Assembly: GCF_900215505.1 (NCBI RefSeq)
Contig: NZ_LT907844.1
Coordinates: forward strand, 1,646,501 to 1,710,500
DNA from: Cohaesibacter sp. ES.047
GTDB taxonomy: Bacteria > Pseudomonadota > Alphaproteobacteria > Rhizobiales > Cohaesibacteraceae
Length of the DNA: 64,000 bases
Direction of reading: 5' to 3'
Shown here: piece by piece, positions 19,399-22,529 of the stretch
Layout: each line of letters opens with the position of its first letter
Numbering within the stretch: position 1 is the first letter of the stretch
The notes under the pieces: generated by a model
Databases searched by the model: none
What the model saw: the letters and a program-made list of their open reading frames with translations, nothing else
What the model was told of the DNA's origin: nothing
Translations under genes and position numbers: made by a program

Positions 19399-19431
19399 AA
19401 AGGTGGAGAGGCTGGCCTCTTCACCTTTTTT
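19399..19431 (+). terminator. Rho-independent terminator of pyrCE
   Basis: AAAGGTG-G-AGAGGC pairs with GCCTCT-T-CACCTTT across a TG loop, giving a 14-bp stem with one G-U pair, and the stem runs into TTTTTT (19426-19431). It insulates the following operon from pyrE transcription. Confidence 0.92.
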
Positions 19432-19495
19432 GTCGGTATTTCGCATGAGCAAGCCGGTATGGGCTGAATATTGATCATGGCTTTCCACAATGCTC

Positions 19496-19526
19496 AGAGA
19501 AAAATGCACATTGTGCACTTTTCTCT
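19496..19526. promoter_or_regulatory. 31-bp near-perfect palindrome, candidate operator of the RHH-CHAD-ParA-CYTH operon
   Basis: The core TGCACA-T-TGTGCA is perfect, and the flanks AGAGAAAAA and CTTTTCTCT extend the symmetry to 14 of 15 pairs. The site ends 57 bp before the RHH gene. A further perfect 8-bp palindrome, TGACGTCA, lies at 19555-19562, close to a CATAAT hexamer at 19566-19571 that could be a -10 box. Autoregulation by the 60-residue RHH protein is an inference. The same structure could also fold as a hairpin, but it lacks a T tract. Confidence 0.6.
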
Positions 19527-19583: not shown

Positions 19584-19766
19584 ATGTCCAAGCCCAACAA
19601 GCAAGACGAGAGCGGCAACAAGAAAAAGAACACCTCCCTGCGTTTGAGCCGGAACACGCTCAAGGCGCTGAAAATTCGCGCCATTGAAGAAGATGCGAGC
19701 ATTCAACAGATCGTTGAGAGGCTCGTTGAAGACTATCTCCAGACGTCTCGAAAGAGCAATTCATGA
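19584..19766 (+). CDS. Small ribbon-helix-helix protein (ParG/CopG-like)
   Basis: 60 residues. A very basic, probably disordered N-terminal tail (residues 1-17, several Lys) precedes a predicted beta strand NTSLRLSRN and two helices (TLKALKIRAIEED and SIQQIVERLVEDYLQ), the pattern of dimeric RHH DNA-binding proteins. Partition systems of the ParFG type pair such a protein with a short ParA, and its flexible basic tail stimulates the ATPase; the same role here is inferred. It overlaps the CHAD gene by 4 nt (ATGA) and heads a four-gene operon. It may also repress its own promoter through the palindrome at 19496-19526. Confidence 0.75.
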   Translation: MSKPNKQDESGNKKKNTSLRLSRNTLKALKIRAIEEDASIQQIVERLVEDYLQTSRKSNS

Positions 19767-21292
19767 AACATGCCGAGCAGCTTACCCACTATTTGCCAAC
19801 CTATTCGGCAGACGGATTGACCGACGAGAGTTTCGGAAAACTCCGGCTCACCTATGCGCCGAGCAACGACGGCTTTAGTGCCACGCTGTTGGACACGTTT
19901 GATCACGCCTTGCGTCGCTCCGGCAGGCTGCTGGTCGCAGGCGAAGGCATGCTGGAGTTGATGGACCGGGACGGGTCCCCGGTTCGGCAGGCAGCCCGGC
20001 AGACTGGTGGCTTCGTTGCGGATTTCGATGACGGAGCGGTGAAGGAGGCGATTGCCGATGTGCCGGCCCTACGGGCGCTGCTTGCCATTGGTGATGTCGA
20101 CTTGTGCGCCATTTCTGCGGCGCTCGTTGATGACGAGGAAAAGACCCATGTCCGGGTTCAGCTGATGCAGGTTTCGACCTCGGATGGCTTCATGGGGTTG
20201 CTTGTCACGCTCAGGGCCTTGCGCGGCTATGAAAAGTCCCGATCCGCCGCACTGGATCGTCTGGCGGCTCTGGGTGGCAAGCCGCTGAAGGCAGCTGATC
20301 TCTATACGCGGCTGTTTCCAAAGCGACTTGCCTACAATACCAAACCGAAGATCCGCATTGGCAATGATGAGGAAGCCTTCGATGTGGCGACGGATATCAT
20401 TGCTGCCCATCTGCCGGTGGCTCGAGCCAATGAGGCAGGGATCATCGAGGATATCGATACTGAATTCCTGCATGACTATCGCATAGCGCTGCGCAAAACC
20501 CGGTCTGTGTTGAGCCTGTTCAAGGGTGTTTATGATGACGAGACCACCCGATCTTTGAAGGACCGGTTCTCAACTCTGATGGCACCGACAGGTCGGCTGC
20601 GTGATCTCGATGTCTATCTGCTCGAGAAGCAGAAATTCTATGATCTGTTGCCCCAGAGCCTGCATGGGGGGCTTGATCAGATGTTTGCGCTGTTCGCGGC
20701 CGAGCGTCAGGACGTGCAGCAGACCATGGCCGGGCTTTTGTCGAGCAAGGCTTATCGGCGGGAGATCACGGATCTGCAAAAGCTGTTTCGTAAGCCCAAA
20801 AGGCTCGGGCGCGGACCAAAAGCTGACCTTCATGCCCATAGCTATGCCTCGAAGCTGATCTGGAAACGCTATCGCAAAATCTGCAAAATTGCCAAGGGGA
20901 TCGGCCCGGAGACGGATGATCGCGAGGTTCATGAGCTGCGCATCCATTGCAAGAAGTTGCGTTATCTGATGGAATTTTTTGCTCCGATCTTTCCAAAGGC
21001 CGAGTTCAAAAGCCTTATCCGACCCTTAAAGCGCCTGCAGGACAATCTTGGCAGCTTTAATGACTATTCGGTGCAGAAGGAAACGCTGGCGGCTTTTGTC
21101 GAAGGGCTCAATGTCAAACAGAAGAAGCAACAGATGGAGATCGCCCAGACGGTCGGCGCGCTGATCGCCATCCTGCACCGACGCCAGCTTGAGGAGCGGG
21201 CGAAGGTGGTTGACAATTTTGCGCGCTTCAACAGCAAAGAGACCCAAAAAACCTTCCGTCACCTTTTTAACGGCGGGGAGAGCAAATCATGA
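19763..21292 (+). CDS. CHAD-domain protein with degenerate CYTH-like N-terminus
   Basis: 509 residues. From about residue 200 to the end it is a CHAD domain, an all-helical repeat rich in basic residues that binds polyphosphate. The first half carries HDYRIALRKTRSVL (His237) and GRLRDLDVYL; the second carries HELRIHCKKLRYLMEFF (His390) and RLQDNLGSFNDY. The N-terminal 190 residues resemble a CYTH fold in outline (LLDTFDHALRRSGRLLV recalls the usual strand-turn around YFDTPD..LRR) but have no ExExK motif, so they are probably not catalytic. A complete CYTH protein is encoded two genes downstream. Starts and stops overlap neighbours by 4 nt on both sides. Confidence 0.85.
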   Translation: MKHAEQLTHYLPTYSADGLTDESFGKLRLTYAPSNDGFSATLLDTFDHALRRSGRLLVAGEGMLELMDRDGSPVRQAARQTGGFVADFDDGAVKEAIADVPALRALLAIGDVDLCAISAALVDDEEKTHVRVQLMQVSTSDGFMGLLVTLRALRGYEKSRSAALDRLAALGGKPLKAADLYTRLFPKRLAYNTKPKIRIGNDEEAFDVATDIIAAHLPVARANEAGIIEDIDTEFLHDYRIALRKTRSVLSLFKGVYDDETTRSLKDRFSTLMAPTGRLRDLDVYLLEKQKFYDLLPQSLHGGLDQMFALFAAERQDVQQTMAGLLSSKAYRREITDLQKLFRKPKRLGRGPKADLHAHSYASKLIWKRYRKICKIAKGIGPETDDREVHELRIHCKKLRYLMEFFAPIFPKAEFKSLIRPLKRLQDNLGSFNDYSVQKETLAAFVEGLNVKQKKQQMEIAQTVGALIAILHRRQLEERAKVVDNFARFNSKETQKTFRHLFNGGESKS

Positions 21293-22038
21293 AAATCATT
21301 GCATGCTATTCGAACAAGGGGGGCGTGGGAAAAACCGCTGTGTCGGTCAATCTGTCCTATGCCATGGCAGAAGCGGGCAAGCGGGTTCTTTTGTGTGATC
21401 TCGATCCGCAAGGGGCTTCCAGTTTCTACTACCGCGTCAAACCTTCCCGGAAACTGACAGACGAGAAGTTCTTCAAAGACGTGGAGCGCTTCACGAGCGC
21501 GATCCGTGGAAGCGATTTCGACAATCTCGACATTCTGCCCGCCAACATGACCTTTCGCAATTTCGATGTCTTCCTGTCGCGGATGCGGAACAGCCGATCA
21601 CGCCTGAAAAAGGCTCTGAAGAGCGTCAAGGCCGATTATGACATTATCGTTCTGGATTGCCCGCCGAACATTTCGGCGCTGTCGGAAAGTGTCTTCAAAT
21701 CTGCCGACTACATCGTCGCGCCGGTCATTCCGACAACCCTGTCGCAACGCACGTTCGAGCAACTTCTCGATTTCTTCAAGAAACATGATATCCCGCGCAA
21801 GAAACTTCTGGCATTCTTCTCCATGGTGCAGTCGGTCAAGACGCTTCATCAGGGACTGATCGACGAGATGTCGGACCAGTATGGCAAGCATTTTCTTGAG
21901 GCGCGCATCCCGTTTGCGTCCGATATCGAAAAGATGGGCGTTCACCGCGCGCCAGTGTTGGTCACGGCATCGTCCAGCGCGGCCTCGAAAGCCTATCGGG
22001 CACTTTACCGGGAATTGAGCGAAAGGATATCGCTTTGA
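21289..22038 (+). CDS. ParA-family ATPase
   Basis: 249 residues, the short ParA class without an N-terminal DNA-binding domain. The deviant Walker A is NKGGVGKTAVS with signature Lys10 and catalytic Lys15; Walker A-prime is in LLCDLDPQGASS and Walker B in DIIVLDCPPNIS. Such ATPases form ATP-dependent dimers on the nucleoid and move plasmids, chromosome origins or large protein bodies such as carboxysomes. No parB or centromere repeats are seen nearby. It lies between polyphosphate-linked genes and shares 4-nt overlaps with both, so cargo positioning related to polyphosphate is a reasonable inference. Confidence 0.9.
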   Translation: MKIIACYSNKGGVGKTAVSVNLSYAMAEAGKRVLLCDLDPQGASSFYYRVKPSRKLTDEKFFKDVERFTSAIRGSDFDNLDILPANMTFRNFDVFLSRMRNSRSRLKKALKSVKADYDIIVLDCPPNISALSESVFKSADYIVAPVIPTTLSQRTFEQLLDFFKKHDIPRKKLLAFFSMVQSVKTLHQGLIDEMSDQYGKHFLEARIPFASDIEKMGVHRAPVLVTASSSAASKAYRALYRELSERISL

Positions 22039-22529
22039 CCAATGACAACTTCAAGACTGCCTCGATCGAGATCGAGCGGAAATATCTGGTGCAGGTGTTG
22101 CCTGTGCTTGATGGACTGAAGGCAACAAAGGTGCGGCAGGGCTATCTGACGGCCTCAAGTGACAGCATTGAAATCCGATTGCGCGAGCAGGATGAAAATC
22201 AGGTCATGACGTTGAAGTCGGATGGTGGCCTCGAGCGGACCGAGGTCGAAATGCCGATCTCGAATGAGCAGTTCGAATGCTTCTGGCCTGCGACCAAAAG
22301 CGCCCGTATCGAGAAGGTGCGCTATCTTGGCAGCTTGCCGTCGGGACTTACGTTCGAGCTGGACGTTTTTGCCGGGGATCTTTCGGGTCTGAGACTGGTT
22401 GAGGTGGAGTTTTCCTCGCGCGAGGAGGCGGAGAGCTTTGTCGCGCCGGACTGGTTCGGCACGGATGTCACTGAAGACAAGCGCTACAAGAACAAGAGGC
22501 TCGCCGAGCAGGGGCTGCCCGCAGAGTGA
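22035..22529 (+). CDS. CYTH-domain protein (triphosphate tunnel metalloenzyme family)
   Basis: 164 residues. The signature ExExK is present as EIERK (Glu12, Glu14, Lys16), followed by alternating charged strands: IEIRLRE, QVMTLKSDGG, TEVEMPI, FELDVFAG, LVEVEFSS, and the closing DKRYKNKRLAE. These form the tunnel that binds triphosphate or polyphosphate with divalent metal; close relatives in bacteria hydrolyse tripolyphosphate. All key charges look intact, so it is likely active. It starts at TTG 22035, overlapping the parA stop, with AAAGGA eight bases before. Last gene of the operon; it ends 17 nt from the convergent tonB. Confidence 0.88.
   Translation: MTNDNFKTASIEIERKYLVQVLPVLDGLKATKVRQGYLTASSDSIEIRLREQDENQVMTLKSDGGLERTEVEMPISNEQFECFWPATKSARIEKVRYLGSLPSGLTFELDVFAGDLSGLRLVEVEFSSREEAESFVAPDWFGTDVTEDKRYKNKRLAEQGLPAE

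Follow-up and report, generated by a model that had tools for sequence, protein, structure and literature searches.

A CHAD–ParA operon in Cohaesibacter as a candidate system for positioning polyphosphate granules

ParF/ParG partition systems unite a ParA-type ATPase with a small ribbon-helix-helix (RHH) protein, as does an operon that we found in a stretch of 64,000 nucleotides of Cohaesibacter sp. ES.047 (contig NZ_LT907844.1, positions 1,646,501 to 1,710,500 of the forward strand; hereafter the window), which encodes an RHH-like protein, a CHAD protein, a ParA ATPase and a CYTH enzyme; in this operon, however, the RHH-like protein appears dispensable and ParA is nearer to Soj-like chains. 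In the McdA/McdB systems (PMC6328270, PMC13052382) the gene of the ParA-type ATPase likewise adjoins that of a cargo-binding protein and the cargo is not DNA, but the proposed adaptor of the operon is a CHAD protein instead of McdB, and its presumed cargo is polyphosphate (polyP). The CHAD phosins and the CHAD protein of C. tepidum (PMC6537752; Tumlirsch and Jendrossek 2017) have the same fold and the same central polyP-contact residues as the CHAD protein of the operon, which differs in being coupled to ParA and in carrying an N-terminal CYTH-like fold that Pfam does not recognize as CYTH.

Spacing of polyP granules has been described for AlgP of P. aeruginosa (PMC9239181), and the operon would likewise space granules evenly through attachment to the nucleoid; AlgP, however, is a histone-H1-like protein and not an ATPase, unlike the ParA of the operon, and a 2025 review tabulates it as the polyP granule positioner whose ATP dependence is marked as unknown (PMC13052382). 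The Acidithiobacillus synteny folD-ppk-parA-CHAD (PMC10892726), likened here by its description only, has parA adjoining CHAD and ppk as in the loci reported below; it comes from a study of copper resistance, which in its available part notes just the plasmid partition role of ParA and proposes no positioning. In the literature that we searched on CHAD, ParA and polyP, which held few subscription papers and no preprints, no description of a CHAD–ParA positioning system was found, this synteny being the nearest. The adjacency of CHAD and ParA genes in distant bacterial groups suggests, from the sequences, a dedicated machine that positions polyP granules or shares them out.

The CHAD–ParA core and its distribution

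The core of the four-gene operon is the CHAD–ParA pair. An earlier note on this DNA had reported four genes overlapping by 4 nt at every junction, and both the open reading frames (ORFs; 60, 509, 249 and 164 aa, all on the forward strand) and the three overlaps (ATGA, ATGA and TTGA) were confirmed. Among 18 genomes of the genus (that of the window and 17 congeners, including one that is 64% complete), ParA is present in 11 and lies between CHAD and CYTH in every one; of the three shared genes it has diverged least, the ten congeners carrying it at 74–91% identity to the window, as against 50–73% for CHAD and 59–72% for CYTH. Two of these loci occupy a pyrE/tonB site and include the RHH-like gene, and the other nine lie behind a 369-aa ORF (galactokinase by Pfam in the one scanned) and do not include it. 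Because the CHAD–ParA–CYTH order is kept in 11/11 ParA-bearing genomes of the genus at two chromosomal sites, and because the full RHH–CHAD–ParA–CYTH order recurs in a distant genome (L085) and in six Paracoccus plasmid records, the operon is more than a chance arrangement.

The CHAD protein matches the Pfam family at 203.7 bits (cut-off 25.6) and consists of an N-terminal CYTH-like fold (about residues 3–187) followed by the CHAD domain (about 195–506). A structure model built from seven sequences (mean pLDDT 81.4, pTM 0.68) resembles C. tepidum CHAD 6qv7 with a Z of 34.4 (rmsd 1.9 over 313 residues) and the polyP-bound C. tepidum CHAD with a Z of 33.9; over residues 3–187 it resembles structures of the CYTH/TTM type (2gfg at Z 12.0, rmsd 3.7 over 165), and no Pfam CYTH match was obtained in this N-terminal region. 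Alanine at His253, Arg256, Arg260, Arg296 or Arg418/Tyr419 of the C. tepidum protein (CtCHAD) has been reported to reduce polyP binding (PMC6537752). All six residues have identical counterparts in the CHAD protein of the window (H237, R240, R244 and R280 at an offset of 16, R400 and Y401 at an offset of 18), and these counterparts are invariant across seven CHAD sequences.

ParA matches Pfam AAA_31 at 142.2 bits (cut-off 27), and its residues K10, G11, G12, G14, K15, T16 and D123, which represent the deviant Walker A motif with its signature lysine and the Walker B aspartate, are invariant in eight sequences; the deviant Walker A with signature lysine is shared with positioning ATPases. Compared with structure chains, it scored best against a Soj-like one (87.9 bits) and reached 34.3 bits against ParF 4dzz, in a comparison that held no ParF-specific model; against NCBIfam ParA_partition it scored 97.5 bits (cut-off 180). 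As a known defence system the locus was discarded, PADLOC yielding only two weak PDC-M28B matches at the Walker A region of ParA.

By its sequence, ParA belongs to a distinct family. A profile of eight ParAs was run against database genome contigs, and all counts from this search refer to the best 80 of 529 relatives; in these, a gap in the scores separates 11 family members (at least 235 bits) from 69 other ParAs (at most 163). With CHAD sought up to 6 kb on each side, it was found directly upstream of 6 of the 11 family ParAs and of none of the 69 others (Fisher 1.5e-6). The six comprise two isolates, Rhodothalassium salexigens and Prauserella muralis, and Desulfobacterales, gammaproteobacterial, actinomycetal and Microthrixaceae metagenome-assembled genomes, whose contigs can be misbinned. 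CHAD is encoded somewhere in 9 of the 11 genomes with a family ParA, and in one of these nine, G571, a second family ParA adjoins that CHAD (L282).

Searches led by CHAD gave a comparable picture. The CHAD protein of the window matched 46/142 genomes of the class (its own included) at 1e-10, G166 being the sole other genome matched near full length and the rest matching mainly over the CHAD domain; of 29 non-self class loci, one (G166) had an operon-type ParA and two (L051 and L065) a ParA of another lineage. Six others matched at 1e-25 among 299 genomes of the phylum, four with ParA adjoining, G381 with CHAD–CYTH and a family ParA at separate places and G204 with none beside, so that ParA adjoins CHAD in 5/7 non-self matches at E <= 1e-25 (G166; G204, G274, G288, G311, G327 and G381). 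Searched from the ParA side, 398 Pseudomonadota genomes gave ParA in 68 at 1e-48, at 69 places, and in 7 of the 65 contexts examined (those of G052, G259, G299 and G326, at <= 204 bits, were left out) CHAD is directly upstream, namely the window, L085, L086, L088, L089, L201 and L202. In Actinomycetota, 9/198 genomes match ParA, and CHAD is directly upstream in five of the nine (Prauserella again among them, and one also with CYTH) within contexts of 1.5 kb on each side; two of the four CHAD-less ParAs score 168–177 bits, within the 163–235 gap.

The two genes are mostly coupled as in the window: a CHAD/ParA overlap of 4 nt (ATGA or GTGA) is present at 20/23 further loci, ten in the genus and 10/13 beyond it, and the remaining three junctions have a 1-nt overlap and gaps of 2 and 17 nt. 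The ParA score alone fails as a predictor of CHAD adjacency (L101 has CHAD at 252 bits and L095 lacks it at 334), although within the Pseudomonadota sample it does separate the loci with CHAD (>= 340 bits) from those without (<= 325). In a tree of 94 ParAs the CHAD-linked rows are found throughout the family and many of the deep branches are poorly supported; the tree thus decides neither for nor against a link that arose only once. L051, entered as having no CHAD, stands there on a very long branch. At L051 (153–2342) and L065 (about 713–2211), CYTH-CHAD genes have the ParA of another lineage directly behind them (216 aa in L051; 53% identity between the two), presumably ParF-like in its size and KGGCGKT motif; this is a second, seemingly independent pairing of CHAD with a ParA.

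Recurrence in other Hyphomicrobiales, which the earlier note had named as a check, was seen only in part: an operon-type ParA was found in 0/23 genomes sampled from the rest of the order, where the best matches are 23–33% identical, and the arrangement recurs far outside the order. Some of these distant copies have polyP genes as neighbours. At L092/L285, PPK1, CHAD and ParA lie on the same strand, followed by PPK2 (on the other strand), an ATP-cone protein, a Na/Pi cotransporter and a SixA-like phosphatase, L092 alone among the 79 loci searched having PPK1 near ParA; at L202, CHAD–ParA faces CYTH, NUDIX and a helix-hairpin-helix protein. The six Paracoccus plasmid records, among them p296221 of P. 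aestuarii DSM 19484, keep the order RHH-like, CHAD, ParA and CYTH, with an annotated NUDIX gene after the operon in four, such an annotation lacking on the two KGP plasmids; by annotation the CHAD/ParA junction is a 4-nt overlap in one record and a 1-nt gap in five, ParA and CYTH form one CDS on pKGP1, and the RHH-like gene, a "hypothetical protein" or unannotated, was recognised by alignment. On pCP157_03 of P. marcusii, pstB-phoU-phoB precedes the operon by about 1.3 kb, an interval that contains two small hypothetical genes. The idea of CHAD as a polyP adaptor for ParA, put forward in the earlier note, is thus strengthened by the conservation of the pair across phyla, in most cases with translational coupling, and by loci that adjoin PPK1, PPK2, a Na/Pi cotransporter or phosphate-regulon genes.

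Several further observations were made at these loci. The Rhodothalassium CHAD partner (L096, 4223–6001) has a long lysine-rich C-terminal tail, and the helix-hairpin-helix protein of L202 (8358–8840, reverse strand) ends in a long lysine-rich tail as well, a make-up like that of nucleoid tethers of PHB and polyP granules. In the acidobacterium Mor1 (L281, 6496–8585), Ppx and PPK1 are neighbours of a CHAD gene that overlaps the gene of a SixA-like phosphatase, ParA being elsewhere. Two plasmids of P. marcusii KGP (L293 and L294) bear the operon, and in P. liaowanqingii (L292) the frame of ParA seems interrupted, since it is annotated as two overlapping pieces.

Accessory genes and upstream elements

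The coordinates of the operon and of the elements before it are collected in Table 1. The CYTH enzyme matches Pfam CYTH at 24.8 bits (cut-off 23.2) and N. europaea NE1496, which we take to be NeuTTM, at 174.7 bits. For NeuTTM, a specific tripolyphosphatase, Tyr-28 and Lys-52 have been suggested to form the catalytic dyad (PMC3440374). Their counterparts Y37 and K61, as well as the ExExK motif (E12-I-E14-R-K16), are invariant in six sequences, and the enzyme is thus a triphosphatase of the NeuTTM type, probably a tripolyphosphatase. The suggestion that CYTH tunes the cargo is retained as far as a cargo-related enzyme is concerned, which the NeuTTM relationship and the kept catalytic residues make plausible.

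The first gene had been called RHH in the earlier note. Its product matches the Pfam families RHH_1 (17.9 bits, cut-off 20.5) and CopG_antitoxin (19.4 bits, cut-off 28) below their cut-offs, and the relatives scanned match mainly RHH-type families, likewise below cut-off; since the best families are RHH-type and all are sub-threshold, we use the label RHH-like. No match to the PDB was obtained for this protein, its single-sequence structure model is one long helix and uninformative, and two of three scanned Paracoccus RHH-like proteins match ParG weakly (16.0 and 14.3 bits, cut-off 21.4). Relatives are present at L033 in the genus, at L085, alone among the further loci searched, and in the six Paracoccus records. 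The gene is absent from 9/11 genus loci, where CHAD–ParA is retained; we therefore rejected the RHH-like protein as a part of the motor and abandoned the ParFG-type motor of RHH and ParA that had been proposed for the operon, against which the affinity of ParA to Soj-like chains also speaks.

The sequence TGACGTCA lies 5' of the RHH start in 9/9 RHH-bearing loci, six of which are closely related Paracoccus, at 27–29 bp in eight and at 72 bp in L085, with a second similar 8-mer 8 or 16 bp from it; such tandem 8-bp sites are reminiscent of MetJ boxes. Because TGACGTCA is upstream in all nine loci having RHH, the RHH-like protein is read as an autorepressor, and the sequences suggest that it is dispensable and acts on tandem 8-bp TGACGTCA-like sites. 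An extended form of the motif has a single exact match in the genome of the window, and with up to two mismatches it occurs at 7 places there, against 1 for a reversed control. In six RHH-less genus loci the 8-mer is found within parA, as coding sequence, and at L202, which has no RHH, TGACGTCA stands 17 bp before CHAD, for which reason it may serve more than RHH.

The terminator and the 31-bp palindrome that the earlier note had placed before the operon were both located (19399–19428 and 19496–19526). The hairpin, omitted by a terminator scan requiring loops of 3–8 nt (its own loop has 2 nt), sits 3' of the preceding phosphoribosyltransferase (pyrE-like) gene; downstream the operon is flanked by convergent TonB and ExbB-type genes. 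No ParB was found by Pfam among the four genes or their immediate neighbours, in keeping with what had been noted, a genome-wide ParB search not having been made. The core of the palindrome, in some cases with one base changed, occurs in 8/11 genus loci, upstream of RHH in L033 and directly 5' of CHAD where RHH is absent, about 60 bp upstream in 6/9 RHH-less galactokinase-site loci; it is lost at three loci (L039–L041). As it is kept in six of the nine genus loci that have no RHH, we rejected it as the RHH site, and it is likely to be the operator of a regulator acting in trans. At one mismatch it occurs at four further places in the genome of the window (one for a reversed control pattern), which make up no clear regulon. 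One of the four, like the palindrome of the window of the TGCAC-N3-GTGCA kind, is found at G000:C1:1942423 (L045), where a small helix-turn-helix gene adjoins it and there is a further, imperfect copy; another, at G000:C1:2141316 (L046), precedes a possible 41-aa ORF by about 100 bp. Such palindromes may mark a small regulon.

Table 1. Features of the CHAD–ParA operon region, in positions of the window
Feature	Position	Strand	Basis
Intrinsic terminator-like hairpin and T run	19399..19433	+	Inverted repeat 19399–19428, 93%
31-bp palindrome, core TGCACATTGTGCA	19496..19526		15-nt arms, 93% complementary, 1 nt between
Putative RHH operator: TGACGTCA, then degenerate 8-bp repeat TGACATAA	19555..19570		Recurrence at RHH-bearing loci
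RHH-like 60-aa protein, probable autorepressor	19584..19766	+	Sub-threshold RHH Pfam matches; relatives at other loci
CHAD protein, 509 aa, proposed polyphosphate/ParA adaptor	19763..21292	+	Pfam, predicted fold, polyP-binding residues
ParA-family ATPase, 249 aa, KGGVGKT Walker A	21289..22038	+	Pfam, alignment, tree
CYTH enzyme, NeuTTM type, TTG start, probable tripolyphosphatase	22035..22529	+	Pfam, similarity, conserved residues

A granule-positioning model and its alternatives

We consider it probable (roughly 0.6) that CHAD and ParA form a granule-positioning pair, in which polyP granules would be positioned on the nucleoid in an ATP-driven manner with CHAD as adaptor. The CHAD protein would coat the granules via its CHAD domain, the ATP-bound dimer of ParA would bind the nucleoid non-specifically, and granule-borne CHAD would stimulate ATP hydrolysis and release of ParA, so that granules would climb the ParA gradient, stay apart and be shared between the daughters, as carboxysomes are with McdA/McdB. 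The CYTH enzyme would rid the granule surface of tripolyphosphate or short chains and, where present, the RHH-like protein would repress the operon at the tandem TGACGTCA-like sites. The model is based on the order, coupling and distribution of the genes, on the conservation of residues for binding and catalysis, on the predicted CHAD fold and on the polyP-gene neighbourhoods of some loci; the CHAD–ParA contact, nucleoid binding, movement, the CYTH substrate in vivo and RHH binding are the steps that we infer. A wider version, with a dedicated ATP-driven polyP granule partition system in at least three phyla, CHAD as adaptor, ParA as motor, lone ParAs using CHAD in trans and a plasmid-borne self-regulated cassette in Paracoccus, is held tentatively, a little short of even odds.

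Several observations weigh against such positioning. The partner proteins of ParA-type ATPases reportedly act through a positively charged disordered N-terminus (PMC10241942), and none is present in the CHAD protein of the window, in either sequence or model; a basic CHAD C-terminus, considered as the ParA contact, showed no difference between 20 ParA-linked and 28 other CHADs (L051 and L065, followed by the other-lineage ParA, being among the 28), which have mean net charges of 1.6 and 1.2 (p 0.78). PolyP synthesis needs no operon, because ppk1 is present in 17/18 genus genomes with or without it, the exception being the incomplete genome. Three of nine plasmid records with ParA (Halomonas, Pontibacter and Marinobacter) show no CHAD; in those of Halomonas and Pontibacter, the upstream side of ParA is outside view, since ParA lies at the start of the record. 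No CHAD was found around 58/65 Pseudomonadota family ParAs (up to about 6 kb on each side, in some cases less than 1 kb), and the cargo of some family ParAs may be a different one. These stand-alone ParAs (L203–L260) fall in many cases into one large clade, and many lie near what we take to be truA and cysM. In favour of the model, CHAD is encoded elsewhere in 39/47 of their genomes, against 17/47 control genomes chosen by serial number among those without a ParA match (p 6.6e-6, kinship uncorrected); 14 of the 61 lone-ParA genomes, mostly less complete, were left out of this search. Within the family f175 the counts are 4/6 and 0/19, a comparison picked after the data had been seen.

It is conceivable, if quite unlikely, that CHAD–ParA positions a cargo other than polyP, CHAD binding another polyanion or a protein. 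The many family ParAs without a CHAD neighbour, the absence of any CHAD from 8/47 lone-ParA genomes and from 2/11 database genomes with ParA (among the best 80 of 529 relatives) all fit this possibility, but the six CtCHAD polyP-binding residues have identical, invariant counterparts here, and CHAD domains are reported not to bind nucleic acids (PMC6537752). An unlikely explanation of another kind would make ParA a regulatory switch with no transport involved: together with CHAD it would sense ATP or polyP, and polyP synthesis, granule size or the recruitment of PPK or CYTH would be under its control. Metabolic neighbours at some loci (PPK1, PPK2, SixA-like, NUDIX and CYTH) would suit such a switch, and ParA-type ATPases can act as regulators; ParA nevertheless retains the signature lysine of the deviant Walker A (K10 and K15 invariant), as positioning ATPases do, and its 4-nt coupling to one polyP-binding-type protein suits an ATPase–adaptor pair.

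We regard as very improbable a ParFG-like partition in which RHH and ParA move DNA, the palindrome or the TGACGTCA sites being the centromere and CHAD and CYTH passengers: RHH does accompany ParA, with weak ParG matches in two of three Paracoccus proteins and six plasmid copies, but CHAD–ParA stays at the nine RHH-less genus loci, six of which keep the palindrome, the copy of the window is chromosomal, and ParA scores higher against Soj-like chains than against ParF. The smallest chance, in our judgement, falls to an accessory cassette for stress or phosphate scavenging with a decayed or neutral ParA; the patchy distribution would agree with it (11/18 genus genomes, and CHAD beside ParA in 7/398 Pseudomonadota genomes), and the conservation of ParA, which within the genus exceeds that of both CHAD and CYTH, opposes it.

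For Caulobacter, proteins that position polyP granules have not been identified according to a 2025 review (PMC13052382). The CHAD–ParA pair names a candidate motor and adaptor for such positioning, which is also present in culturable Paracoccus species, so that the question is directly testable; if the granule-positioning model is true, a cargo that is neither protein nor DNA would be added to the list of those handled by the ParA/MinD family.

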